43,744 bases of DNA from a virus: IMG/VR virus record IMGVR_UViG_3300005253_000041, positions 1 through 43,744 of that record. One strand, written 5' to 3'. Shown one piece after another: positions 2,367 to 23,858 of the stretch. The notes beneath the pieces were generated by a model that was given only the letters and a program-made list of their open reading frames with translations, did not search any database and was not told the origin of the DNA. The position numbers and the translations under genes are program-made. Numbering within the stretch: the first letter of the stretch is position 1; each line of letters starts with the position of its first letter.

Positions 2367-3904
2367 GCTCTCATCAGCTCCACAAGCTCTCGCTCTAACA
2401 GTATCCTCTCACCTGGAGGCAGATTACCTGCTAGCTGTCTTCTAACCTCAGTTACTCTAGCTCTTCTTCTCTGAACTTCTATTATATTCTGTAGTTCAGG
2501 AGGCAACTTACTAACTTGAGGAGCATCAAATCCAGCAGGTATATCTGAAATAGTTGGTATTATATCTGGCTGTTTTACTGCCTTATCTATCTGCTCCTTA
2601 ACAGTACCATCAGGAGTCTTAGCAGTATCCAACTCGCTACGCACTGCTGTTTTTGCTATATCTATATCAAAACCTAAAGCACCGAGTCCTGCCTGCATTA
2701 CAAATAGTCCAGGTCGGAAGATATGGCGGATAGAAGATGGCCTAGCTACGGCATCAGAAGGAAATATAAACTCGTTCCAAACGGTTCCAGATGCTATAAC
2801 AAAGGTCTTAAGGAAACCATCACTCTGAGGACCACTATAGGCAATAGCATATACCCTAAGAGAACCAGGTCTATTTATTACAACTGGGTCGTTGCAATCC
2901 GCATTATCAAATTCTGCACTAGCAAGAACTGCACTGATAGTCCCATCTGGTGAAACCTGAAAAGTCTTCAACCAGCCATCAAAATCAACACCCTGATAAG
3001 CGACAGCAAAGAGATTTGCTGCCCTCTTAATAAGAGAAGGTACTCTACTTACCGTATCGTAGGTTAAGGTGCCCAAGACACTGTTGCCTATAGTACCAAC
3101 ACCATCAATATCTACTGTATATATCTTTCCTGTACTGCTTGTAGCAATGCAACAGGCAATTACAAAAATGCTTCCTGAGAGGTGAGCAATGCTAGTTCTC
3201 AGTCCGTTTGCTCCACCAGCCTCAAATATAAGTGAGTCAATAACAGTATCACCTATAGCTCCAGCATTAGTAATGCTCACTGTTGCTACTATTCCCCTCC
3301 GTGTTGGTAAAGTGGCTATACCCTGATAGGCTATGGCATAGATGTTTCCTGATACTAGAATTATCCGAGGCATAGCCCCCTCAGTTGTATCAAACTCCAG
3401 GCTTTCTATCTCTGGACTAGCATCTATAGTCCCATCCGCATTGATATTAAGGGTCTTCAGCCAGCCATCTCTGTTTGCATCATGGTAAGCAATAACGAAC
3501 ACAGTCCCAGAAATATGTATAATAAAAGGATAATGACCTTCCCCAGCCTCAAACTCATGGCTATCAACTACTGTATCCCCTATATTACCAGAGCTATCTA
3601 TATCTACTGTGCATACCCAACCATCACTATCTACCCCATCGTAAGCGATAGCATAAATATTCCCAGAAACCTTTACTATAGTAGGTGTAGCTGCTCTTGA
3701 GGCATCAAACTCTAGAGTATCAACTACTGTATCTCCTATCTCACCATCTGAGTCTATAGTAACAGTACATAGCCATCCACCGCCAGGTCCTGTATAGGCT
3801 ATAGCGAACACATCTCCTGAGATATGTATAATCCAAGGAAAGTTGCCAGTAGCAGCATCAAACTCTAAGGTATCGGTTACACTCCCTGTAGCACCTACAG
3901 TCAT
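2363..3904 (-). CDS. Seven-repeat beta-propeller tail protein
   Basis: 513 residues. Residues 1 to about 370 hold seven tandem repeats of about 50-55 residues, each with a LEFDA-like opening, an SGxxYAIAY core and a GWLxTVxIDxxGxIGDTV end. This is the pattern of a seven-bladed propeller. The last ~100 residues are non-repetitive and end in a charged helix (VQRRRARVTEVRRQL), suitable for attachment to other tail parts. The start overlaps the hub gene's end by 4 bases. Position between hub and fibre fits a receptor-binding or baseplate role. The ligand is unknown. Confidence 0.8.
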   Translation of the reverse strand: MTVGATGSVTDTLEFDAATGNFPWIIHISGDVFAIAYTGPGGGWLCTVTIDSDGEIGDTVVDTLEFDASRAATPTIVKVSGNIYAIAYDGVDSDGWVCTVDIDSSGNIGDTVVDSHEFEAGEGHYPFIIHISGTVFVIAYHDANRDGWLKTLNINADGTIDASPEIESLEFDTTEGAMPRIILVSGNIYAIAYQGIATLPTRRGIVATVSITNAGAIGDTVIDSLIFEAGGANGLRTSIAHLSGSIFVIACCIATSSTGKIYTVDIDGVGTIGNSVLGTLTYDTVSRVPSLIKRAANLFAVAYQGVDFDGWLKTFQVSPDGTISAVLASAEFDNADCNDPVVINRPGSLRVYAIAYSGPQSDGFLKTFVIASGTVWNEFIFPSDAVARPSSIRHIFRPGLFVMQAGLGALGFDIDIAKTAVRSELDTAKTPDGTVKEQIDKAVKQPDIIPTISDIPAGFDAPQVSKLPPELQNIIEVQRRRARVTEVRRQLAGNLPPGERILLERELVELMRA

Positions 3905-6584: not shown

Positions 6585-7502
6585 TTAGTTAAACATTTTC
6601 AGGAAGATTGCAGGTGAGACAGTAATATTAGTAGGACTTCCCTCAGCTCCACCAATGTTAGTTGAGGCGTACTGCTCACCAATACGTTGTACGTTAGTAC
6701 TTTCAATACTCGCAACAGGAGTAGTGTCTGTCGTACCCGCAGACGTTTCGAAAGTTCCCCCAACAGCGTAGCCAACATGCTCGTAGGCAGCAGCACCTTG
6801 ATACGCTGCGTTGATGGGTATGAAGTTGCAAGGTCCGCCTGTCTGCACCCAACAGTACCTACTTGCATAGGATTGCTGGAGATAGACACCCAGTGCCATT
6901 CCATAAGGACCTGAGAAAGGTGAGCGAACTATAGCAAAGGGATGCTCAGTGATTACCACATCGTCGGCAGTGGTAAGAGCTATGACTAGTTCCCCGTCGA
7001 TGGTAAAGGTACTGTAGCCACTACCGTCATTCACAGTGTTCTTGATTATCTGATACATACTGGAACGACCAGCGGTCTGTCTACCACCTACGCCCATCTT
7101 GATACCGATGAAGCCGCCTGCGTAGGCATTTACGGCTACAGTGGTCATGTTTATGATAAGAGTATTAGCACCAGCTGCACCACTGATTACCTTGTTAGTC
7201 TCAATCTGCATTTCGGATGCAGACTCAGCTATATACCCAGCATTGATTGAGCCATCACCTGTGCCCTTCTGCCCAAAGTATGTAGGGTCAGTCTTAGTGT
7301 AGATAAATGTCCTCAAGCCATGCCGAAAGATAGTACCTGTGGGATACTTTTGTGCTGTACTACTTTTGTATAGGTCTACACCTGGCAGAAGCAAGTTTCC
7401 GCTCCACACACCGTCCTGCCCTTCCTCCCAAGGTGGCAAATAGATAGTGCCACCATTGTTTACTCTAAGGTCATGGTTTACTCCTGTATAACCGTCTACC
7501 AT
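6585..7502 (-). CDS. Capsid decoration / head protein candidate
   Basis: 305 residues, Gly/Thr/Ala-rich and beta-structured, encoded directly downstream of the major capsid gene. Pieces such as GTIFRHGLRTFIYTKTD and the aromatic SRYCWVQTGG segment fit a trimeric or knob-like head protein. AGGAG precedes the ATG at 7502. A minor coat or head-fibre role is inferred from position. The family is not certain. Confidence 0.65.
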   Translation of the reverse strand: MVDGYTGVNHDLRVNNGGTIYLPPWEEGQDGVWSGNLLLPGVDLYKSSTAQKYPTGTIFRHGLRTFIYTKTDPTYFGQKGTGDGSINAGYIAESASEMQIETNKVISGAAGANTLIINMTTVAVNAYAGGFIGIKMGVGGRQTAGRSSMYQIIKNTVNDGSGYSTFTIDGELVIALTTADDVVITEHPFAIVRSPFSGPYGMALGVYLQQSYASRYCWVQTGGPCNFIPINAAYQGAAAYEHVGYAVGGTFETSAGTTDTTPVASIESTNVQRIGEQYASTNIGGAEGSPTNITVSPAIFLKMFN

Positions 7503-7553: not shown

Positions 7554-8636
7554 CTATATAGTGATTGCTGCATCCTGAATATCAAAGATTCTTCCTAGAC
7601 ACAGGCTTGAGCCTAGCAGCAGAGCGCTCCTATTAACCAGCCTTATACCGCCAGCATCATAGTCTTCTAATTCAGGAAAGCGGACGAGCTTATACAGGTC
7701 TCCCAGACCCTCAGTTCCACCAAAGGCATAGGTTAGACCTGGCTCCTGGTTCAGCACATTACCGTGCTTGATACCGAAGATAGAGTATACTCTGTCTCCA
7801 CTTGAGTAGAGTGCTCTTGCAGCACCATCAGAGCCAGTACCAGTGTCATCGTCCTCGGCTACTAGGTAGTCAGTCCTGATGATAGGAATACCATCCCAGA
7901 ACAGCACTCGCTTACCTAACTCATTGAAGCCCATTGTTAGGAAGGTTAGGTTAGTGGTATTAGCGGCAGCCTGTAGGATACCCCGCTCTTGGTAGGTAGC
8001 ATCCATTCTGCGAATGACCTCGTAAGGTGCCCAGAGCTCATCTACACCATAGAGCATAGAGTCAATCATTACTCTTAGGTAGTGTAGACTTAGCCCTGCA
8101 TCCCCGTTATCTATGTTCTTAGGGTCATTACCGAGATTAGATGAGTCGTAAGCAGTCCCATGCTCATAGGCTAAGGCATGAACTCCATCAAACTGCTTTG
8201 AGCTAGTGTAGGTGTTGTCAGCGTAGATAATCCTAGCACCTAACTTCCTCTTAAGCCCCTTCTCAGACTCTAACAGTACTCTTGCTTCATAGTTATTGTA
8301 GGTCCCGTAGATGCCTGGCAGGTAGTGGTCTAGCTTCCTCTGAATATAGCATCTACGAAGGGTCGATTCCTTCTCTTCATAGTCTACATCCTCTGTCCAG
8401 GACAGCTGTTCACCTATGTCTATATCTGCCACTGCGGCTTCAATGCTGGCTACTGCGGATGGTAGCTCTCTTAGCCACTCTATCTTAAGTCCACTGTGAG
8501 CAGCCTGACCTACAGTTAACCTGTCTAGTGGATTGTTTCTTTTAATATCTTCTTCAAAGACTCCTGGAATCTTCATTGACTGCGTTAGCTTCTGAGCAGC
8601 AGCCAGATTAATCCAGTTTCCACCTGAATCAGCCAC
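7554..8636 (-). CDS. Major capsid protein
   Basis: 360 residues, starting at a GTG at 8636 behind an AAAGGAG site. It follows the scaffold gene by 26 bp, the usual scaffold-coat order. Features fit an HK97-fold coat protein: an N-terminal helical arm, a long acidic-basic spine helix (ARVLLESEKGLKRKLGARII), and a late segment FGGTEGLGDLYKLVRFPELE. It assembles into the procapsid around the scaffold. Exact fold assignment is by context and style. Confidence 0.85.
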   Translation of the reverse strand: MADSGGNWINLAAAQKLTQSMKIPGVFEEDIKRNNPLDRLTVGQAAHSGLKIEWLRELPSAVASIEAAVADIDIGEQLSWTEDVDYEEKESTLRRCYIQRKLDHYLPGIYGTYNNYEARVLLESEKGLKRKLGARIIYADNTYTSSKQFDGVHALAYEHGTAYDSSNLGNDPKNIDNGDAGLSLHYLRVMIDSMLYGVDELWAPYEVIRRMDATYQERGILQAAANTTNLTFLTMGFNELGKRVLFWDGIPIIRTDYLVAEDDDTGTGSDGAARALYSSGDRVYSIFGIKHGNVLNQEPGLTYAFGGTEGLGDLYKLVRFPELEDYDAGGIRLVNRSALLLGSSLCLGRIFDIQDAAITI

Positions 8637-20649: not shown

Positions 20650-21038
20650 TGGACAATAGCGAAACTTATATCAAGATGTGTGAGAAGGCGGTGGAGATAC
20701 AAGCTGATAGACCATTCCCAAGTACTCAAGTGGTAGATGAGAAGCTGGTGGATGATTGGGAGATGACTTATTTTGATGAAGGTTATCTCATTGATAATAG
20801 AGGTAACTGGTGGGCAGATACTCATCCTGATACTACCTGGCTACCACGCCAAGACCAGTTGCAGGAGATGATGAAATGTAAGTATCCAGTGCTGAAGGAG
20901 CTGCTATACAGATTTAGTCTATGGGCTTTGTTCTATACTAGAAAGTACACCTCAATGGAACAAATCTGGTTCGCCTTTATTATGATTTCATCTCATAATA
21001 AAGTTTGGAATGGATGTGATTGGATAAGTAGTAACTGA
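20646..21038 (+). CDS. Hypothetical early protein
   Basis: 130 residues from ATG ATG at 20646/20649, with GGGAGG just upstream. The centre is Trp/Asp-rich (NRGNWWADTHPDTTWLPRQD), followed by a hydrophobic helix. It overlaps both neighbours by one to four bases. Such short aromatic early proteins often bind host targets, but no function can be assigned. Confidence 0.65.
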   Translation: MMDNSETYIKMCEKAVEIQADRPFPSTQVVDEKLVDDWEMTYFDEGYLIDNRGNWWADTHPDTTWLPRQDQLQEMMKCKYPVLKELLYRFSLWALFYTRKYTSMEQIWFAFIMISSHNKVWNGCDWISSN

Positions 21039-21496
21039 TGAATATTTACCTTAGCATCTGCCGTAAGACTGTTCCTAAGTGCACCTACTGTGGAGAGACT
21101 ATAGAGTTAGGCGAACTGGTGGTCTGCGGTAGAGCGTGGCAGAAATATAAAGAGGAGGAAGGTGAGAGAAGAAGATGGATGAACAACTTTCGATGGCACG
21201 GGAGGAGGAAGAGAGACTCCCAGTGTTGCTGGTTGGAAAGTCAGGCAGAGAGAATAAGGCAGGAGCCAGTAGTAGAGACAAGGGGAAGGAAAGCCATGCT
21301 CCTATCGGAGTCAGACAGAGAGGCAAGGTTGAAGATATTAAGAGCAAGGGCAAGGGCAGTAGCAAGGCTGAAGGAGATAATGGAGGACCCTCTAGACCCA
21401 GAAAACACAAACGAGATGATAAAGGTAGGAAGTCAGATAGAATACTTAAAGGAGAAGATAGCCAAGGTAGGCGGAGTGCCTCCGAGTTGGCTATAG
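21038..21496 (+). CDS. Zinc-finger-like early protein with basic helix
   Basis: 152 residues. A treble-clef-like start (CTYCGETIELGELVVCGRAW) and a further CC pair at 63-64 suggest zinc binding. Residues 90-115 form a strongly basic helix (LKILRARARAVARLKEIM), and the end is charged. Nucleic-acid binding is plausible. The other open frame over 21175-21496 gives low-complexity sequence and was rejected. Confidence 0.7.
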   Translation: MNIYLSICRKTVPKCTYCGETIELGELVVCGRAWQKYKEEEGERRRWMNNFRWHGRRKRDSQCCWLESQAERIRQEPVVETRGRKAMLLSESDREARLKILRARARAVARLKEIMEDPLDPENTNEMIKVGSQIEYLKEKIAKVGGVPPSWL

Positions 21497-21855
21497 TTCA
21501 TCCTGGCAGTTTCTGTATTGATGATGTTATTACTGGGAATAATCCTCACTATTGGGAAGGAGTAGAGACTATACACGGAGGAACTCTATTTAGATGCGGT
21601 AGGTGTCATAAGCATCTATGGTTACCTAATGGAGAGGAAGAGATTTATCAGTTGGGCAGTTTAGTAAATAAGGTTGGAATTACTAACGGTTACTGCCAGT
21701 ATCTAGACCTTACTAAGAGACGGCCTGCAAAGATAATGATGGCTAAGCTACAGTTGATAGAAAGGGAGAGTGTAGAGGTAGAGGATAGGATGGAGTTTGC
21801 TAGGAAGATTGATAGGATACTATATAAGAAGGATTATGATAAGAAGGAGGTATAG
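21487..21855 (+). CDS. Zinc-ribbon-like early protein
   Basis: 122 residues if started at the TTG at 21487, behind a GGCGGAG site. The first convincing sequence is here, not further upstream. It contains CGRCHKHLW (about 36-44), a probable zinc knuckle, and a charged helical C-terminus with KKDYDKKEV. Overlaps the preceding gene by 10 bases. Start uncertain. Confidence 0.6.
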   Translation: MAIVHPGSFCIDDVITGNNPHYWEGVETIHGGTLFRCGRCHKHLWLPNGEEEIYQLGSLVNKVGITNGYCQYLDLTKRRPAKIMMAKLQLIERESVEVEDRMEFARKIDRILYKKDYDKKEV

Positions 21856-22434: not shown

Positions 22435-22584
22435 ATGGTAAAGATGAAAGCTTCTATATGTCCTGAGTGTAGGAAGTCAATACAAAGGCATGATGCTAAT
22501 AGAATCAATGTTAAAGTTGCAGACGGTAGTAATGGCAAAGGAGTCTATAAGGAATATCATCTTAACTGCTATCAGAGTAAGTAA
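22435..22584 (+). CDS. 49-residue zinc-ribbon protein
   Basis: A short gene behind AAGGAG. CPEC at 9-12 and HLNC near the C-terminus form a four-ligand zinc site, and the middle is basic. It closes the first early gene cluster before the non-coding region. Confidence 0.65.
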   Translation: MVKMKASICPECRKSIQRHDANRINVKVADGSNGKGVYKEYHLNCYQSK

Positions 22585-22780
22585 GTAGCAACTTTCAAAT
22601 ATGAGAATTCTCCTTCTAGGAGTAGAGATAACATATACATAGCAAAGAAAGGCACCCGTCCCCTCTGGACTATTGGCACCTGGCTGGGTATGTTCTGGAC
22701 AGCTGGCACGCCTACCATTATCAGTTACTTGCAGATGGGATGCAACTGCAGGTGGGATGGTAGTGCCAGTAGTTCAATGA

Positions 22781-22816
22781 GTTCAGTACCTACTGAGTGT
22801 TCAGTACTTACTCAAT
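22781..22816 (+). repeat. 18-bp tandem direct repeat
   Basis: GTTCAGTACCTACTGAGT (22781-22798) is directly followed by GTTCAGTACTTACTCAAT (22799-22816), with 14 of 18 positions identical. Such iterons can bind an initiator or repressor. It ends 8 bp before the LexA-type box. Confidence 0.7.
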
Positions 22817-22824
22817 AGATAGTA

Positions 22825-22836
22825 GAACATATGTTC
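22825..22836. promoter_or_regulatory. LexA/DinR-type SOS box candidate
   Basis: GAACATATGTTC is a perfect palindrome matching GAAC-N4-GTTC, the operator bound by LexA in Bacillus and many related or actinobacterial hosts. No LexA-like gene is in the phage, so the host repressor would have to act. The nearest recognised promoter is about 155 bp downstream, so direct control is unproven. Confidence 0.5.
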
Positions 22837-22840
22837 GTAC

Positions 22841-22868
22841 GGCAAGCGGCAACCATCTACCGCCTGCC
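22841..22868. other. Hairpin
   Basis: GGCAAGCGG and CCGCCTGCC form nine-base arms with one mismatch and a 10-nt loop. First of three consecutive dyads after the LexA-type box. Confidence 0.55.
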
Positions 22869-22871
22869 AGT

Positions 22872-22890
22872 TGTGATGGAGAACATCACA
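22872..22890. other. Hairpin
   Basis: TGTGATG and CATCACA are perfect 7-bp arms around the loop GAGAA. Confidence 0.6.
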
Positions 22891-22897
22891 GTACACC

Positions 22898-22925
22898 ATT
22901 ATAGATATGCTAGCATATCTATAAT
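22898..22925. repeat. Perfect 28-bp palindrome
   Basis: The 28 bases equal their own reverse complement, centred on GCTAGC. Flanking ACCATTAT (22895) and ATAATGGT (22931) add an alternative outer stem. A site of this symmetry suits a dimeric protein or a cruciform. No known operator was recognised. Confidence 0.75.
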
Positions 22926-22990
22926 CATCGATAATGGTAGTATGTGTGAGTATGCACTAGCCCAATGCCTCCCAGTCCCTGTCAGTGAGG

Positions 22991-23019
22991 TTGACATAGT
23001 ATTGATAGTATGTTATTAT
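22991..23019 (+). promoter_or_regulatory. Rightward promoter
   Basis: TTGACA, a 17-bp spacer ending TGT, then TATTAT. It would serve the gene at 23130 through a leader of about 100 nt. Confidence 0.75.
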
Positions 23020-23129
23020 GAATACAATGATGGTGAGATACCAGCTAGGACTGGTAAATAACAACTCACCACAACTGGAGGTGTTTGTATAGTGGCAACG
23101 ATACAACTCTCTGAATAAAGGGAGATAAT

Positions 23130-23675
23130 ATGGCAGATGAGATAGAACAGGGAGCTGTAGACCAGCAGGAACCAGTACAGCCAACTGAAGCTGAACTCAA
23201 GGCAGAACTGGACAAGGCATATCAATCAGGCGACTTCAAAGCAATAGCAGTTGTCGCCAGAAAGATAGACCAGGCTGTCAGGACTGCTGAGAAAGCCGAA
23301 CTGGAAGTCAAGCGAGCCTCCTTAGATGGCATCAAGAATAAGGTAGCTAAGGCATACGAGAAAGCTATCAAACCACTATACGACTCAGGTGAGCTAAGTT
23401 CAGAACTCATAGATGGTATCTGGATAAGTCACGACTTTGGAGATGTAGCTCCAACAGTAAGGCTGACGAAGACAGCACCCAAAGGCACTCGCAGTTCAGG
23501 CGGCGGAGGTGGAGGTAAGAAGTTTGACATCTCAACTACTGATATGCTCGCAAAGCACGGGGAAGAGGAGTGTAAGGACGGACTGAACTTTAGTCAGGCT
23601 TGGGAGTCAAGCACAGATAAGAACTGGAGATACGGCATAAGGCACAAGCTACTAAAGTTGGAAGGCATCATATAA
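23130..23675 (+). CDS. Coiled-coil protein with Gly linker, possible DNA-binding
   Basis: 181 residues behind GGGAGATAAT. An acidic N-terminus is followed by an Ala/Lys-rich coiled coil (about 20-90), a beta stretch (WISHDFGDVAPTVRL), a Gly6 linker and a C-terminal helical domain ending NWRYGIRHKLLKLEG. This coiled-coil/linker/small-domain build resembles nucleoid-associated proteins in shape only. It is a single-gene unit with its own promoter and terminator, which suggests high or separate expression. Confidence 0.7.
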   Translation: MADEIEQGAVDQQEPVQPTEAELKAELDKAYQSGDFKAIAVVARKIDQAVRTAEKAELEVKRASLDGIKNKVAKAYEKAIKPLYDSGELSSELIDGIWISHDFGDVAPTVRLTKTAPKGTRSSGGGGGGKKFDISTTDMLAKHGEEECKDGLNFSQAWESSTDKNWRYGIRHKLLKLEGII

Positions 23676-23692: not shown

Positions 23693-23732
23693 GTAAAGGG
23701 AGTAGTTAGTTGCCAGCTGCTCCCTTTCTTTT
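23693..23732 (+). terminator. Rho-independent terminator
   Basis: AAAGGGAG (23695-23702) pairs with CTCCCTTT (23720-23727), and CTTTT follows. It lies 18 bp after the preceding stop codon. Confidence 0.8.
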
Positions 23733-23829: not shown

Positions 23830-23858
23830 TTGACATAAGGTCGGAAGTATGGTATAAT
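23830..23858 (+). promoter_or_regulatory. Rightward promoter
   Basis: TTGACA, a 17-bp spacer ending TGG, then TATAAT. It shares GGTTGACAT and the extended -10 with the main early promoter. It drives the cluster starting at 23900. The preceding intergenic stretch also holds a small hairpin (TGTTGC/GCAACA at 23763-23779). Confidence 0.88.

Follow-up and report, generated by a model that had tools for sequence, protein, structure and literature searches.

The window, by which we mean the whole stretch of DNA analysed, is the 43,744-base IMG/VR virus record IMGVR_UViG_3300005253_000041. Its left half encodes, on the minus strand, a terminase matching annotated phage terminases and presumably the other structural genes, while the plus strand of the right half carries small early genes along with replication genes (family A DNA polymerase, dCMP deaminase, AAA ATPase and DNA methylase). 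Between positions 22585 and 23129 lies the longest non-coding stretch in the window. It begins directly after the stop codon of a 49-aa ORF (22435-22584) and runs up to the ATG, at 23130, of a conserved gene encoding 181 amino acids, so bounded, the gene-free region described in the earlier note holds at its coordinates. A 76-aa ORF (22831-23061) runs across the promoter and matched nothing in Pfam. The region serves a conserved early phage gene as control region and 5' leader. Its features and those of the gene are listed below (no strand is given for repeats and palindromes).

22587-22671, plus strand: conserved 85-bp block, defined by an nhmmer profile, directly after the upstream gene
22781-22816: two imperfect 18-bp tandem repeats, GTTCAGTACCTACTGAGT/GTTCAGTACTTACTCAAT
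22824-22837: LexA-box-like palindrome, putative operator, AGAACATATGTTCG, with GAAC-N4-GTTC at 22825-22836
22898-22925: perfect 28-bp palindrome, putative operator, ATTATAGATATGCTAGCATATCTATAAT
22991-23019, plus strand: extended -10 sigma-70-type promoter, TTGACA-17-TATTAT, with TG before the -10
23026-23129, plus strand: 5' leader of the 181-aa gene, predicted to be structured; the start site is approximate
23031-23071, plus strand: first leader hairpin (predicted fold), GGTGAG...CTCACC with an inner CCAG...CTGG hairpin
23077-23081, plus strand: GGAGG able to pair with the anti-Shine-Dalgarno strand and so extend the kissing hairpin, in suboptimal folds of the window, L006, L007 and L010
23085-23106, plus strand: putative kissing hairpin, stem TTGTAT/ATACAA, loop AGTGGCAACG
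23107-23124, plus strand: Shine-Dalgarno-hiding hairpin (predicted fold), CTCTCT/AGGGAG, covering GGGAG
23130-23675, plus strand: early gene of 181 aa, conserved in relatives
23695-23727, plus strand: intrinsic terminator of the 181-aa gene, loop AGTTGCC, in which GTTGCCA (23709-23715) complements the leader loop

Further upstream, two plus-strand ORFs (21038-21496 and 21175-21855) overlap in different frames. The conserved part of the second (SASELAI...) starts exactly where the first ends (GGVPPSWL-stop), and GGAGTGCC is kept in relatives; a programmed frameshift or a TTG/CTG start is proposed here from the sequence.

No relatives of the region or of the 181-aa protein turned up in the phage, plasmid and GTDB genome collections, which yielded no cultivated relative or host genome. 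The comparison sample consisted of about 35 distinct related loci of uncultivated phages from IMG/VR, referred to by numbers with the prefix L. An Rfam scan of the window and ten relatives gave no match above the gathering threshold except one tRNA in L100, a related phage contig in which the tRNA gene (8263-8336) lies upstream of the same control region. The 181-aa protein gave a confident helical model (pLDDT 83) with long N-terminal helices, a beta hairpin, a Gly linker and a C-terminal helical domain; it has no convincing fold match in the PDB and belongs to no Pfam or PHROG family.

Across the relatives the region consists of three blocks: the 85-bp block, a variable block with many LexA-like palindromes, and the promoter with the structured leader of the 181-aa gene. 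The 85-bp block gives one nhmmer match per genome, at the same position, in all relatives holding the region. L006, which was outside the training set of the profile, was matched as well (E 1.1e-14). The block contains the motifs TGAGAATTCTC...AGTAGAGA...GCAAAG..GGCACCCGT and showed no consensus fold when tested as RNA.

The repeats and dyads of the region, which the earlier note had pointed out, fared unequally. The 28-bp palindrome, part of the variable block, is real: it is the sole perfect palindrome of at least 18 bp in the contig and exceeds everything found in 300 dinucleotide shuffles of the region, the longest of which reached 24. The reported richness in inverted repeats and hairpins was likewise confirmed, with 12 inverted 7-mer repeats against a mean of 1.99 in shuffles, none of 300 reaching the observed number. 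The tandem 18-bp repeats are present (15 of 18 positions identical), but direct repeats taken together do not stand out clearly from chance, the observed level being reached by 30 of 300 shuffles. Neither a counterpart of the 28-bp palindrome nor the tandem repeat was seen in the variable block of relatives; several of these have short repeats of their own, and many also have extra promoters and small ORFs there. Small ORFs unrelated to each other, in L042 (about 6795-6930) and L051 (about 3540-3740 on the minus strand), lie between one pair of complementary flanks, GTGGACTGCTGG ... CCAGCAGTCCAC, within a larger GAATAGCG...CGCTATTC stem, an arrangement that, judged by its sequence, looks like an exchangeable cassette. 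The predicted promoter is convincing, having near-consensus hexamers, and the relatives aligned first carry a promoter scoring 10-12 of 12 at the same place.

A hairpin similar to the first leader hairpin, though different in sequence, is found in L006, L007 and L010. In the window and in L006, L007, L010 and L078, here called class A, a hairpin before the start codon hides the Shine-Dalgarno sequence, and one of its columns covaries as C-G, A-U or G-C, albeit among only four distinct sequences. A pattern scan for the class-A leader led to already known loci only. In the window, L006, L007 and L010, the Shine-Dalgarno-hiding hairpin and the extended kissing hairpin differ by 0.4-3.3 kcal/mol, and a translation switch operating through these competing folds is plausible on the folding models. 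With the Shine-Dalgarno site mostly open in the other relatives, such a switch cannot account for every member. When the complete transcript of the window is folded globally, some of the leader loop pairs with coding sequence, a point against the loop pairing described next.

The loop of the kissing hairpin has the consensus AG[U/C]GGYAAC (window 23091-23099), and the terminator loop, about 600 bases away, has the complementary consensus GUURCC (window 23709-23714). The leader half complementary to the terminator loop is TGGCAAC (23093-23099). Both loops are conserved, whereas terminator stems vary widely between phages, and both are still kept at L040, whose protein is only 17% identical to the first sequence of the alignment. 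When the loci were scanned for terminators, all 14 carriers of the GUURCC loop proved to be the terminator of the 181-aa gene, and the loop occurred in none of 15 other predicted terminators (one of the 15 being the reverse complement of the same site). In L017, L018 and L020, leader motif and terminator motif are absent together.

Covariation was assessed on 31 loci having both elements, which gave 28 distinct rows of related, not independent, sequences; the leader sites of L063, L067, L069, L080, L107 and L108 were placed by eye. In the six-pair core, 100% of the cells of the 28 rows are standard pairs, compared with 97.4% after shuffling (0 of 500 shuffles as high), and the covariation score exceeds that of all 500 shuffles. 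Sliding the partner by one to three columns lowers pairing to 10-51%. For seven pairs, 99.0% are paired (0 of 500 shuffles), a figure that includes an L067 hairpin revised at the leader site after the motif-blind test described below; the seventh pair is broken in L006 and L010.

At one pair, the window (GGCAAC:GUUGCC) and L078 (GGUAAC:GUUACC), its nearest relative, have different bases in both partners, C-G versus U-A. L063 and L108 have GACAAC:GUUGUC, with A-U replacing G-C at the next pair, L067 has AGGCAAC:GUUGCCU, and L080 and L069 have G-U pairs at the ends of the loop pairing. On the protein tree the leader Y has changed about 10 times and the terminator R about 7 times, and the combination C:A was never seen; an independent-pairs test on the tree had too few pairs for significance. 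The free-duplex energy of the loop pairs is about -7 to -15 kcal/mol.

In the motif-blind test, the structurally defined terminator loop was compared with 120 nt of leader. The summed matches came to 246.5, compared with 193.5 +- 5.0 for shuffled leaders. In most phages the test chose the same leader site. The very distant L110 gave an unrelated but perfect 8-nt match.

Sequence and covariation place complementary segments in both UTRs, 5' and 3', of a single transcript. These results strongly suggest that the leader loop and the terminator loop pair with each other, and we infer that the contact would form in cis, joining the ends of the same message, and not between two mRNA copies. On the same sequence evidence, the terminator at 23695-23727 is to be counted as part of the putative device, and the finding extends past 22585-23129, some 600 bases downstream. 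Among the possibilities raised in the earlier note, a regulatory RNA locus was right in kind: there is a promoter and, after it, a structured leader with a loop covarying with that of the transcript's own terminator.

Taken together, the sequence comparisons make it reasonably probable that the region is a control region with a structured leader and that a kissing loop between the 5' and 3' ends of one phage mRNA regulates the early gene. The promoter at 22991-23019, whose timing is probably set by the LexA-like site and the 28-bp palindrome upstream, would make an mRNA whose leader folds into hairpins. UGGCAAC in the leader (23093-23099) would then kiss GUUGCCA in the terminator loop (23709-23715) through about six to seven base pairs, and this would join the two ends of one message and control the gene between them. 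In class A, the kiss may stabilise the extended leader hairpin, in which GGAG is paired with the anti-Shine-Dalgarno strand, so that the extended hairpin wins over the Shine-Dalgarno-hiding one and the ribosome site is freed. Finished transcripts might in this way be better translated or better protected.

That the pairing acts on translation or stability is what we lean towards, by a modest degree. A near-consensus promoter follows the terminator, at 23830 in the window and also in relatives. With a strong promoter in that position, the genes beyond do not depend on read-through, which makes an effect on the single message, through translation or stability, the more likely one.

The same arrangement of hairpin and terminator could also serve transcription. 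According to this explanation, the leader hairpin and a boxA-like element form a signal of nut or rrn type, Nus factors keep the leader close to the exit of RNA polymerase, and its loop catches that of the terminator on emergence, altering termination at the end of the gene (antitermination or leader-trailer tethering). Most relatives indeed have a boxA-like element (GCACTTTAACA and similar) at fixed spacing after the hairpin. It agrees in 10 of 11 positions with the gammaproteobacterial consensus GYTCTTTAANA (PMC5725501). For rRNA operons it has been proposed (PMC10250234) that the boxA/antitermination complex retains the leader up to the emergence of the trailer, and the phage loci resemble these operons in hairpin-boxA order and leader-trailer pairing. 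In several phages, moreover, the complementarity extends into the 3' arm of the terminator. Against this, the terminator is strong in all relatives and is followed by the near-consensus promoter just mentioned, no N-like protein was identified, and the leader of the window has no boxA. For the window, boxA-mediated antitermination was not adopted because the element is missing from its leader. We consider a role of this kind unlikely, while leaving it the largest share among the alternatives. A scan with the boxA pattern matched mostly unrelated coding sequence.

Control may also be exerted on the DNA, by an SOS-dependent switch between lysis and lysogeny in which host LexA would occupy sites of the GAACATATGTTC type and so keep the region's early promoters repressed. 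Such a switch is compatible with the kissing-loop device and both may coexist. Across the relatives, LexA-like sites occur at 1.30 per kb in the 800 nt preceding the 181-aa gene and at 0.04 per kb elsewhere, making them about 37-fold denser in the region. Clusters of GAACATATGTTC-type palindromes lie within 800 nt upstream of the gene in L013, L016 and L077, for example, and in several relatives sites abut the -35 of an upstream promoter; from their sequence, these clusters are putative sites for LexA or a phage repressor. The LexA consensus of B. subtilis is CGAAC(n)4GTTCG, and there is a precedent in phage GIL01, which uses host LexA for lysis-lysogeny control (PMC4551915). However, in the window a single site is present, with some 160 bp separating it from the -35 farther downstream, and no integrase or repressor was found among the window proteins scanned. 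An SOS switch appears rather doubtful.

A further explanation would have the two loops recognised separately, the leader for instance as a GNRA-like protein-binding hairpin, their complementarity being coincidental. GGYAAC may be viewed as a G-C-closed GYAA tetraloop, the conservation of AGUGGUAACA is greater than a six-pair kiss requires, and six matching bases in a pair of short loops are no great rarity by chance. Yet the leader GACAAC of L063 and L108 is no longer GNRA and has changed together with its terminator, and Y and R change many times with no forbidden combination, so that we regard coincidence as improbable.

Least probable is the replication origin or partition site proposed in the earlier note: the region is indeed the longest non-coding stretch in the window, has a palindrome and dyads, a conserved single-copy 85-bp block and, in several relatives, short repeats of their own in its variable part, but the GC-skew check suggested there placed the sign change at about 20.0 kb, tracking the coding-strand switch and outside 22.6-23.1 kb, there is no AT-rich segment (43.1% GC, the same as the genome), and neither palindrome nor tandem repeat was seen in relatives. 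One part, the 85-bp block at 22587-22671, could be an origin or another DNA site.

Returning to the kissing loop, the loci compared may represent, in our tentative view, a class of cis-acting RNAs in a clade of tailed phages, in which leader hairpin and own terminator hairpin would kiss to form a closed-loop mRNA and production of the early protein would require a correctly terminated transcript. Many members would combine the kiss with a boxA-like element, echoing by analogy the leader-trailer layout of rRNA operons. We put the chance that they form such a class, previously undescribed, at slightly below even. If real, it would be a simple means of tying translation or stability to proper termination, and it would turn terminator loops, usually deemed spacers, into regulatory elements to look for in other genomes. 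Pairing between the ends of an mRNA is well known in eukaryotic viruses; to our knowledge there are few bacterial examples. In the open-access literature we found no kissing loop between leader and terminator, and no end-to-end pairing that has an intrinsic terminator loop as partner or is held by covariation in a phage family.

The nearest documented bacterial case, by analogy, is the icaR mRNA of Staphylococcus aureus, in which a long 3' UTR pairs with the Shine-Dalgarno region and represses translation; the study describing it also mentions hok and closed-loop viral RNAs (PMC3868564). In both icaR and the phage mRNA, the 3' end would pair with the message's own 5' leader near the ribosome site. 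The phage partners are, unlike those of icaR, two kissing hairpin loops, the 3' one being that of the terminator, and their contact, which covariation maintains across phages, would instead tend to make the ribosome site accessible. The hok mRNA of a type I toxin-antitoxin system folds back from 5' to 3' end and needs 3' processing and an antisense RNA. The phage message would share with it the timing of translation through end-to-end pairing, but neither a toxin nor an antisense RNA was seen at the phage locus.

Closed-loop RNAs of plant and animal viruses, such as barley yellow dwarf virus (cited in PMC3868564), bring the message ends together by pairing of 5' and 3' loops, as do, by our proposal, the phage loops; they are translation elements of eukaryotic RNA viruses, whereas here the pairing would involve a DNA phage mRNA and an intrinsic terminator. 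Most relatives share with the rRNA operon leader (PMC10250234) a hairpin, an element like boxA and complementarity between part of the leader and the trailer. They differ from it in a loop-loop contact instead of a long helix and in a protein-coding message, and the window also in having no boxA.
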